From assembly GCA_036381035.1 (NCBI GenBank), contig DASVDQ010000099.1, positions 1-64,000 on the forward strand: a DNA stretch of 64,000 nucleotides, read 5' to 3'. The translations under genes were made by a program, and so were the position numbers. This DNA is from Trueperaceae bacterium (lineage in GTDB: Bacteria; Deinococcota; Deinococci; Deinococcales; Trueperaceae). Each line of letters opens with the position of its first letter. Positions within the stretch are counted from its first letter, which is position 1. The notes under the pieces were generated by a model. That model was not told where the DNA came from, ran no database searches, and saw only the letters and a program-made list of their open reading frames with translations. Of the stretch, positions 4,557 to 14,912 are shown in pieces.

Positions 4557-4575
4557 ACCCTATGAATCATAGGGT
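4557..4575. promoter_or_regulatory. Candidate LexA operator upstream of the DUF6504-like gene
   Basis: ACCCTATGAATCATAGGGT is a perfect 19-bp palindrome with nine-base arms. On the minus strand it contains TATGAT, a near-consensus -10 hexamer, so a bound repressor would block the promoter of the gene starting at 4513. It shares ACCCT-N9-AGGGT with the palindrome in front of lexA. Confidence 0.65.
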
Positions 4576-12425: not shown

Positions 12426-13988
12426 TCAGGCCGCCTCGAGGCCGTAGTCGTCGTCCTCGAGCGAGTACTCCTCGGTGTAGCGCTGGCCCCGGCGCCTGGG
12501 GAAGAGCCGGCGCTGCGTCGGAGCGTCGCCCCGGCTCCCGGCGGAGACGCGCGCGGGCAGGCCCAGGCCCTCGTCGTCGCTCACGAGCTCCTCGGCCGGC
12601 GTGAACGCGCCGGTGAAGAGGGCGTCCAGGTACCTCGCCGCCGCGACGGTGCCCGGGGCGGGCTCCTGCGCGGGGGCGCCGTGCGCACCGGCGACGTCGG
12701 CGACGGCCGGCGTGGGCAGGTAGGGCTGGTCCTCGAACAGCGGCACCGAGGCGGCCAGGGCCGCCTCCGGCACGGGCGCGCGCTCGCCCGCGCCGGCGCG
12801 ACGGCGCCGGCCCGCGGGGGCGGCCTGCGGCGCGGCGCGCTCGGCCACCGACGCGGCGTCGTACGCCCCTCCCTGCCTGGCGTAGCCCTCCCAGCGGCCG
12901 ACGCGGTCCGTCGCCTGCGCGTGGGGGTCGTCCCACTCGAGCCGCCGCGGGGCGCTGGGGAAGCGCTCCATGGTCGCCTCCAGCGCCCGCTGCCGCCGCT
13001 CCCGGCGCGGCCACAGGCCCTCCTGCACGCCGAGCGGCTCGGGGGCGGCGAGCTCGAGGGTGATCCGCTCGATGGGCTGGCCCTGGGCGCGGCTGTCGTG
13101 CAGGGCGAAGAGCGCCTGCTGGCGGATGTGGCGCGCCTGGGTGAGCGGCTGCTTGCTCAGGCGGCTGGCGCGGCGCGTGCTGCCGGGGAGGCTGGCGGTG
13201 AGCGTGAGCCGCCGCGCGGCGCGTCCGCCGAGCTGCCTGGCGAGCTCCTCGGCCAGGCGGTCGATGGCTGGGAGGAGCTGGCCCGGCTCGACGACGGGCT
13301 CGGTGAAGGCGAGCGACCGGCTGACCGTGGGCACCTGCTCGAAGGGCCGCAGGGCGGTGCGGCGCGGCCCGTGGACGTAGGGGAGGAGGGCGTCTCCCTC
13401 CTCGCCCAGGTACGAGGAGACCTGGGAGGGCGTCCACGCGGCGAGGTGGCCGACGGTGCCGAGGCCGAGCCAGGTGAGGCGGGTGAGGTTGCCGTCGGAC
13501 AGCCCGACCCCGCGCAGGAAGCGCAGCGGGAGACGGGCGAGGAAGCCGTGGACGTCGTCGACCTGCCGCGCCGCGCCCGGCCGCACGCTGAGGGCGGCCA
13601 GCTCGGCGGTCTCGCAGTCGGGCGCGACGCCGACGCGTACGCCGTAGGCGGCGGCGAGGGCCTCGGCCTCGTCCGGCTCGAGCCGGGCCAGCGCCCGGCC
13701 GCGCGCGAGGCTCTCGACCCAGGGGGTGTGTCCGCTCAGCTCGCGCAGGAGCTCGTCCCAGGCGTGCTGGAGGTCGGGCTCGGCGTAGGAGACCGCCTGC
13801 AGGCCCTCGACGCGCAGGCGCGCGCCGTCGAGCCGCATGCCGGGCGTGATGCCGTGGCGCTTGGCGGCGGCGTTCGCGTGGGTGACGCGCTGCTCCTCGA
13901 CGCTGACGAGGGGCGCCCTGGCCAGCTCCGGGTCGGCCCTGACCGCCAGGAACAGCGGCAGCGGGTCGAAGCAGAGGGCGGCGATCAT
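12426..13988 (-). CDS. imuB: ImuB-like Y-family DNA polymerase homologue, catalytically degenerate
   Basis: A 520-residue protein. Residues 1-330 follow a Y-family polymerase: CFDPLPLFLAV in place of the first metal motif, HGITPGMRL, then FLARLPLRFLRGVGLSD of the thumb and the little-finger region. The second catalytic motif, normally S-x-D-E, reads SLAR at 93-96, so both acidic residues are lost, as in mycobacterial ImuB. The low-complexity C-terminal half carries QRRLF at 492-496, a consensus sliding-clamp motif, and another PLF site earlier. Its expected role is as a clamp-bound adaptor in translesion synthesis with a DnaE2-type polymerase. lexA lies 250 bases away, and a small RNA candidate sits between them. 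Confidence 0.75.
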   Translation of the reverse strand: MIAALCFDPLPLFLAVRADPELARAPLVSVEEQRVTHANAAAKRHGITPGMRLDGARLRVEGLQAVSYAEPDLQHAWDELLRELSGHTPWVESLARGRALARLEPDEAEALAAAYGVRVGVAPDCETAELAALSVRPGAARQVDDVHGFLARLPLRFLRGVGLSDGNLTRLTWLGLGTVGHLAAWTPSQVSSYLGEEGDALLPYVHGPRRTALRPFEQVPTVSRSLAFTEPVVEPGQLLPAIDRLAEELARQLGGRAARRLTLTASLPGSTRRASRLSKQPLTQARHIRQQALFALHDSRAQGQPIERITLELAAPEPLGVQEGLWPRRERRQRALEATMERFPSAPRRLEWDDPHAQATDRVGRWEGYARQGGAYDAASVAERAAPQAAPAGRRRRAGAGERAPVPEAALAASVPLFEDQPYLPTPAVADVAGAHGAPAQEPAPGTVAAARYLDALFTGAFTPAEELVSDDEGLGLPARVSAGSRGDAPTQRRLFPRRRGQRYTEEYSLEDDDYGLEAA

Positions 13989-14075
13989 CGGCGCCCCCTG
14001 ACCGACAGGCGCAGCGGCGGTCGGCCGACGGGCGGCCGGCCCGGCCGCGGCGGCGTCCCGGCCGGCTGGGTCGGC

Positions 14076-14104
14076 TTGGTTGCCCGGTTGGGGGGTGTTA
14101 GCAT
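14076..14104 (+). promoter_or_regulatory. Putative sigma-70 promoter of the small RNA
   Basis: TTGGTT (14076-14081) and TAGCAT (14099-14104) are separated by 17 bases. Transcription would start near 14111, just before the two hairpins. Confidence 0.45.
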
Positions 14105-14110
14105 GAGAGC

Positions 14111-14202
14111 GACCTGAGTTCCGACCGCGTTCGCGGTCGACTATGGGCGGCGAAAGGACACATTCTCTTGCTTGGCGGCGGTGGATGTGTCCTTCCGTTT
14201 TT
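14111..14202 (+). ncRNA. Candidate small RNA between imuB and lexA
   Basis: About 92 bases with two perfect hairpins: CGACCGCG-TT-CGCGGTCG (14122-14139, tight) and AAGGACACAT/ATGTGTCCTT (stem 14154-14163 with 14185-14194, 21-base loop). The second is followed by CCG and TTTTT at 14198-14202, a classic intrinsic terminator and one of very few T-runs in this GC-rich window. A promoter-like pair precedes it at proper spacing. No open frame fits. It does not match the signal recognition particle, 6S or tmRNA motifs I know. It could instead be a terminator plus attenuator without a separate function. Confidence 0.55.
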
Positions 14203-14238: not shown

Positions 14239-14877
14239 TCAACCACTCCCTTCGAGGAGCAGGTCCTGCACCACGTCACCGCGGATGAGGCCGCGCATGA
14301 CGCCGTCCACGTGCAGCTCCGACGCCGGGACCGTGAGCGTGGGGTAGCTGGGGTTGTGGGGCCGCAGCCGGTACGCCGGGGGCCTGTCCCCCGCGCGCGG
14401 CTGGCTCCACTCCAGGTACTTGAGCGTGGACTCGTCGTCCCCCACCCTCACGGCGCAGACCTCGCCGGAGCGCTGCGGCTCGCCGCGCTGCAGGAGCACG
14501 ACGTCGCCGTCCTCGATGCGGTCGGCCATGGAGTCGCCCCGCACGCGGAGCGCGAAGTGGTCGGGCCGTCCGCGGAGCACGAGGTACCCCTCGGGCTCCG
14601 GGTAGGTGCCCACGGGCAGGCCGGCGGCGATCTCGCCGAAGAGCGGGACGCCCACGGCGGAGCCGAGCAGCCGCAGGCGCGGCGCGCGGCCGGGGCCGCG
14701 GCTCTCGAGCACGAGCTTGCCCTTGGCCTCCAGGGCCTTGAGGTGCTCCCGCAGCGTGGGGTAGGTGATGCCGAAGCTGCGCGCCAGGGACGAGAGGTCA
14801 GGCGTGGCGCCCGTGCGCTCGTAAGCGCTCTTCAGCGCCTCGAGGATCTGGGTCTGCTTGAGCGGCCGCGGCGGCAT
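14239..14877 (-). CDS. lexA: LexA repressor
   Basis: A 212-residue protein. It has an N-terminal winged helix-turn-helix (about 5-68, DLSSLARSFGITYPTLREHLKAL) and a C-terminal peptidase S24 domain. The cleavage site is Ala85-Gly86 (GEIAAGLPVG), the catalytic serine is Ser116 (RGDSM) and the lysine is Lys153 (STLKYLE). It represses DNA-damage genes until RecA filaments trigger self-cleavage. The ATG at 14877 has GGAGG seven bases upstream; a GTG at 14895 would overlap the operator and was not chosen. The N-terminal HTH is more GntR/MarR-like in spacing than E. coli LexA, so the operator need not be the usual CTGT box. Confidence 0.9.
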   Translation of the reverse strand: MPPRPLKQTQILEALKSAYERTGATPDLSSLARSFGITYPTLREHLKALEAKGKLVLESRGPGRAPRLRLLGSAVGVPLFGEIAAGLPVGTYPEPEGYLVLRGRPDHFALRVRGDSMADRIEDGDVVLLQRGEPQRSGEVCAVRVGDDESTLKYLEWSQPRAGDRPPAYRLRPHNPSYPTLTVPASELHVDGVMRGLIRGDVVQDLLLEGSG

Positions 14878-14893
14878 CGTGCCTCCCTCCGTC

Positions 14894-14912
14894 ACCCTTA
14901 GAAAATAAGGGT
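14894..14912. promoter_or_regulatory. Candidate LexA autoregulatory operator
   Basis: ACCCTTAGAAAATAAGGGT is a 19-bp palindrome with seven-base arms. It lies 16 bases before the lexA ATG and covers TATTTT, a likely -10 on the minus strand. It shares ACCCT-N9-AGGGT with the site at 4557-4575. Confidence 0.7.

Follow-up and report, generated by a model that had tools for sequence, protein, structure and literature searches.

What lies in the short gap between the two DNA-damage genes of a Trueperaceae contig, and is it a gene? We analyzed a 64,000-nt stretch (contig DASVDQ010000099.1, positions 1–64,000; hereafter, the window) in which an imuB-type Y-family protein gene (12426–13988, –) and a second lexA gene (lexA2; 14239–14895, –) are separated by 250 nt. 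A first-pass annotation had suggested an unlisted small RNA flanked by two DNA-damage genes, and Pfam agreed on the flanks, assigning LexA_DNA_bind and Peptidase_S24 to one product and IMS and IMS_C, of the impB/mucB/samB (ImuB-like) type, to the other. By direct reading, the plus strand of the gap carries a predicted small RNA gene, convergent with lexA2 and divergent from imuB, and, as had been noted, that strand has no gene ending directly upstream of it. No RNA family had been recognized, in line with Rfam 15 giving no match in the window at gathering score and matches at chance level only under lax thresholds.

We predict an RNA of ~93–95 nt (14110–14202, +), a block kept in relatives, with its start inferred about 7 nt past an extended –10 element, TGTTAGCAT (14096–14104, +), where TGn precedes TAGCAT (14099–14104). 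The first-pass annotation had read a promoter pair with 17-base spacing. The spacing is as described and the extended –10 is conserved, but the pair is weak: the candidate –35, TTGGTT (14076–14081, +), and TAGCAT match the consensus at three and four of six positions, respectively, a 9-of-12 promoter scan did not call TTGGTT-17-TAGCAT, and the –35 is not kept in the 14 aligned relatives. On the opposite strand, the ATG of a 39-codon ORF (13985–14104, –) overlaps the –10 and its TGA overlaps the imuB start (ATGA); the ORF may be a leader peptide or an imuB extension, and its start codon is not kept in all relatives.

The predicted RNA contains two hairpins. Hairpin 1 (14122–14139, +; CGACCGCG-TT-CGCGGTCG), earlier described as a tight 8-bp hairpin, has 8 complementary bp on paper but 7 bp and a 4-nt GUUC loop as RNA; it appears in the predicted folds of relatives with a variable stem sequence. 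Hairpin 2 (14154–14194, +) had been read as 10 bp followed by TTTTT, and its arms, AAGGACACAT (14154–14163) and ATGTGTCCTT (14185–14194), extend to 12 bp counting the inner UC/GG pairs, with CCG leading to a T5 tail (14198–14202, +), the putative intrinsic terminator of the small RNA. The tip, GCTTGGCGGC (14170–14179, +), consists of the hexaloop TTGGCG (14172–14177) closed by GC/GC; the core folds as GC-UUGGCG-GC and is flanked by a U-rich strand that faces a G-rich one. The 96-nt RNA has a minimum free energy of –44.3 kcal/mol against a shuffled mean of –32.0 (z = –4.1; 0 of 200 shuffles as low). The observation that the other terminator-like hairpins lack a T-run also stood: across both strands of the 64 kb, hairpin 2 is the sole hairpin with a perfect stem of at least 9 bp and a T-run, whereas 10 Markov simulations gave 0–1 each, and it was missed by a short-loop terminator scan because its loop is long. 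The words "textbook terminator" fit the window genome, where the T-run is clear, but the run is degenerate in most relatives.

A lack of stem conservation in relatives had been named as one half of what would refute the candidate, and the relatives show the opposite. A DNA similarity search of 101 genomes with the whole gap as the query gave six convincing matches in the same gap, covering the RNA and not its flanks, and in these relatives, obtained by plain sequence similarity, stem 2 covaries. For hairpins 1 and 2 together, the seven sequence-selected homologues were 92% paired with seven double-change pairs (0 of 500 shuffles). A covariance model (R1) of the six matches and the window sequence brought in more family members and the first members in another family of the order. 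In an alignment of 14 family sequences, 97.6% of the cells of hairpin 2 are paired and 5 of the 12 pairs have changed on both sides, a covariation score reached by none of 500 shuffles; with the partner slid by one base, pairing falls to 40–51%. The stem covaries and the tip is nearly fixed, with UUGG (14172–14175), a YUNR sequence in the apical loop, kept in nearly all homologues. Upstream, the form TGnTAnnnT is kept in 12 of the 14, as TGTTAGCAT, TGCTAGCAT, TGATAGCAT, TGCTACGAT, TGCTAGGCT, TGCTAGGAT or TGGTACGAT.

The distribution of the element follows that of lexA2. In a LexA search of 39 family genomes, the window lexA fell as a paralogue into a second, patchy LexA group found in 15 genomes, with 63–75% identity to the window protein; the other LexA, at ~48–57% identity, is also present in 13 of the 15, and it is the second paralogue that accompanies imuB, with a palindromic box of its own. 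The small RNA is present in 14 of 14 assembled lexA2 loci (the fifteenth, at a contig edge in G015, was left out), including one with a decayed loop (G013) and one recognized by eye from its covarying stem and core GCTTGGCGGC (G027). Among the 24 genomes with no detected lexA2, some of them incomplete, only G010 has it. A Fisher test on nearly these counts (14/14 against 1/24) gives a p of ~1e-8, to be read with the genomes of one family not being independent.

In the window, the LexA box ACCCTTAGAAAATAAGGGT (14894–14912) lies at the lexA2 start and adjoins the lexA2 promoter TTGACA-17-TATCCT (14947–14919, –), and a scan recovered the same palindrome, ACCCTNA-N5-TNAGGGT, upstream of lexA2 in most relatives. 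A second candidate box, ACCCTATGAATCATAGGGT (4557–4575), is a near-perfect palindrome with two mismatches to the lexA2 box pattern. In scans, the interval from lexA2 to imuB yielded neither a LexA box nor a sigma-70-like promoter. The gap is therefore likely crossed by a single mRNA, to which the small RNA would be exactly antisense. The locus resembles lexA-imuA-imuB-dnaE2 cassettes in being a LexA-controlled operon with imuB; dnaE2 was not recognized directly after imuB in the window. We know of no small RNA in such cassettes and of no report of one at the lexA2-imuB gap, and a literature search on small RNAs with lexA and imuB in Deinococcus found nothing. The small RNA dsr11, reported in Deinococcus radiodurans of the same phylum (PMC7022480), comes from a different locus.

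Complete copies also occur away from lexA2. In G013 and G010, of two genera, a copy with its own –10, again of the TGnTAnnnT form, lies between peroxiredoxin and ABC-transporter ATPase genes; G010 has the RNA at this locus only, and in G013 the displaced copy has the canonical loop while the lexA2-adjacent copy has lost it. These copies indicate that the RNA is independent of the lexA-imuB gap, a gene in its own right, and that it most likely has the plus-strand sequence. What is expected of a stand-alone small RNA gene, namely its own promoter, conserved structure and lack of coding, is seen in the extended –10, the covariation and indels not in threes. On this sequence evidence, the gap looks like it holds a genuine small RNA gene that had not been listed before, and the candidate of the first-pass annotation gains support from the covarying stem, the conserved extended –10 and the full copy that two genomes carry at an unrelated locus.

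The most interesting part, absent from the first-pass annotation, is that the fixed loop is common to other replicons, the tip being nearly invariant in the family, in the second family of the order, on plasmids and in IMG/VR contigs. In three genomes of the other family (G104, G099 and G107), the same tip stands on a 12-bp stem with T4 and an extended –10, TGCTAAAAT, and a comparison of G104 with G107 shows covariation in the stem. The G104 hairpin sits between cas3 and cse1. A small frame there (L050 1303–1482, –), in a type I-E CRISPR locus, lies under the antisense hairpin RNA and has no Pfam match. The IMG/VR contigs L129 and L136 have the same tip, each on a stem of 10–11 bp. In G104/G107, L129 and L136, the tip hairpin overlaps the region where small genes of the opposite strand begin, which is where an antisense RNA would be expected; in G104, L129 and L136, the predicted plus-strand RNA would start at or in the small gene and cover its ribosome-binding site.

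The same tip was found on actinobacterial plasmids or plasmid-like contigs of Occultella (L290), Georgenia (L291), Ruania (NZ_CP042827.1), Cellulosimicrobium (NZ_CP101476.1), Paraoerskovia (NZ_AP027730.1), Miniimonas (NZ_CP029050.1) and, in a diverged form, Xylanimonas (NZ_CP035496.1). The element is the middle hairpin of a hairpin block, in several cases near a small NikA/RHH-like gene and an HTH gene, and 10 of its 11 pairs have changed on both sides (0 of 500 shuffles). In the cleanest case, Miniimonas, which was reached via the neighboring hairpin only, an identical core GCTTGGCGGC sits on a wholly different stem. The block itself (L302 4001–4168, L303 4001–4126, L328 and L330) is a noncoding feature common to actinobacterial plasmids, near an HTH/MarR-like gene; it resembles a replication or transfer control region and belongs to no Rfam family.

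How these matches were chosen bears on their weight. Loop-pattern matches were preselected on the loop and kept if a stem was present, so alignment A4 overstates the case; the selection of G107, Miniimonas, Ruania, Cellulosimicrobium and Paraoerskovia did not depend on their stems. Most of the at least 120 viral and 77 genome matches to bare loop patterns had no matched hairpin, and consideration was limited to matches that had such a stem. Random sites reach a stem score of at least 9.5 at a rate of ~0.4–0.5%; L290 and L291 were found among 76 matches, where 0.3–0.4 would be expected by chance, and both therefore called for independent plasmid homologues, which they have. The matches L175, L110, L203/L196 and L274 are weaker and were not relied on. 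Weak covariance-model matches in other genomes (L045–L047, L049, L051–L061 except L053, and L319–L327 except L321) were rejected as coding-like or chance. BLAST of the window element, and of the G104 element, against plasmids and phages gave no match.

The tip hairpin is probably a reusable pairing device for gene control. The complement of the loop lies in the lexA2-imuB gap, and the nearest complementary loop would be that of the predicted lexA2-imuB mRNA. Our leading reading, which we hold tentatively and at a little under an even chance, is a cis-encoded antisense RNA that kisses this mRNA loop to loop, damps imuB and can act in trans. The stand-alone gene would be part of an accessory lexA2-imuB mutagenesis cassette, its RNA perfectly complementary to the intercistronic mRNA, whose hairpin would expose a CGCCAA loop. 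First contact would be a loop–loop kiss via the U-turn-type UUGG, and the resulting duplex would lead to RNase III cleavage or premature termination, keeping imuB below lexA2 until the SOS-induced mRNA outnumbers the RNA. As pairing would begin at the loop, action from another locus would be possible, which would explain the displaced copies. Against this reading, a purely cis antisense RNA need not keep its loop identical across phyla, and the poor T-run in most relatives counts against it as well. With a small RNA in a LexA-controlled mutagenesis cassette, the mutation rate that follows DNA damage could be under direct RNA control.

Action by loop–loop kissing is assumed from the UUGGCG motif and the YUNR fit. 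The title of a 1998 paper by Asano, cited in PMC10724649, names UUGGCG as a loop motif of the target of ColIb-P9 inc RNA. On ColIb-P9, the target mRNA carries the motif and the antisense RNA its complement, whereas in the window UUGGCG is on the small RNA; ColIb-P9 regulates a replication initiator, whereas the window element belongs to a chromosomal SOS cassette. The signs of homology are absent in that the plasmid and phage search with the window element was negative, its neighbors are lexA and imuB with no replication initiator, and no similarity of stem or flank to the ColIb-P9 system was found. The parallel is a match of a six-base motif, not homology. Loop sequences of U-turn antisense RNAs vary from system to system; unlike CopA/CopT-type RNAs, the window element has a ten-base tip nearly fixed across phyla. 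Like CopA/CopT and other U-turn antisense RNAs, it has a YUNR (UUGG) in an exposed loop, and PMC4485353 reports such U-turns to be ubiquitous among antisense systems whose pairing begins between loops. I-complex replication control (ColIb-P9 Inc RNA and RepZ mRNA; RNAI of IncB/O, IncK and IncZ) starts pairing by kissing loops (PMC10724649), and the window element is like this system in being a predicted short stem-loop RNA, with UUGGCG in a hairpin loop, on the strand opposite to the transcript it would regulate.

The recurrence of the tip on unrelated stems and distant replicons raises the question whether it is a convergent best solution for fast kissing or has a shared partner. A serious though less probable account is a trans-acting small RNA with its target elsewhere, its lexA2-imuB position being shared inheritance and its tip kept by one conserved partner, be it an mRNA, a tRNA or a protein. 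The identical tips on unrelated stems and replicons and the complete copies at the peroxiredoxin locus of two genera speak for it, and the sole copy of G010 and the loop pattern of G013 favor a target in trans that is distinct from the lexA2-imuB mRNA. The almost perfect linkage to lexA2-imuB argues against it, as does the lack of any universal complementary site standing out in E. coli 16S, 23S or 5S rRNA or in the 23S region of the window genome. Pairing of UUGGCGG with the anticodon loop UUGCCAA of tRNA-Gly(GCC), which is present in the window genome, needs two G–U pairs and is near chance by estimate. The idea that the tip mimics 5S rRNA (UGCYUGGCGGC) was rejected in view of the general character of Deinococcota 5S sequences. 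Within the imuB coding region, 12 nt complementary to the loop occur only in the window genome and two relatives and are explained by GC-rich Ala-Ala-Lys codons.

Broader, and in our view unlikely, is the idea that GC-UUGGCG-GC is a widespread RNA module of chromosomes, plasmids and phage-like elements in at least two phyla, its stem free and its tip docking on one conserved partner, for instance a widely shared RNA-binding protein or the anticodon loop of tRNA-Gly(GCC); the lexA2-imuB RNA would then be the SOS-wired instance.

It is improbable that the functional molecule is instead the minus-strand mRNA, the gap serving as its structured leader or holding a processing hairpin. Although G104/G107, L129 and L136 also have the hairpin within a minus-strand 5' leader, the kept G–U pairs of the tip stem and stem 2 are possible in plus-strand RNA only (A–C on the other strand), the conserved extended –10 is on the plus strand, and the displaced copies have no suitably placed downstream minus-strand gene. 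A peptide read on the opposite strand, PPPSK, was rejected as its frame relative to the stem shifts between homologues. We regard as quite improbable an ordinary (bidirectional) terminator serving lexA2 and any transcription unit convergent with it: the strong hairpin with T5 in the window genome and the convergent position at the lexA2 3' end would suit one, but the conserved promoter, hairpin 1 and the loop would be superfluous, the T-run is not conserved, and on the minus strand the hairpin has no T-run behind it. A mobile DNA hairpin (REP/MITE-like, or a HUH Rep/relaxase nick site) copied into several replicons would agree with the replication- or mobilization-type genes nearby on actinobacterial plasmids and with the phage-like contigs, but is very improbable, as unrelated yet compensating stems are the reverse of a MITE/REP copy, the window genome has one strong copy, and its place is conserved within the family.

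Among the weaker matches, L175 (3020–3200, IMG/VR) contains what appears to be a free-standing three-hairpin RNA, with TGCTAAGAT as the –10, the same tip and then a hairpin followed by T6.
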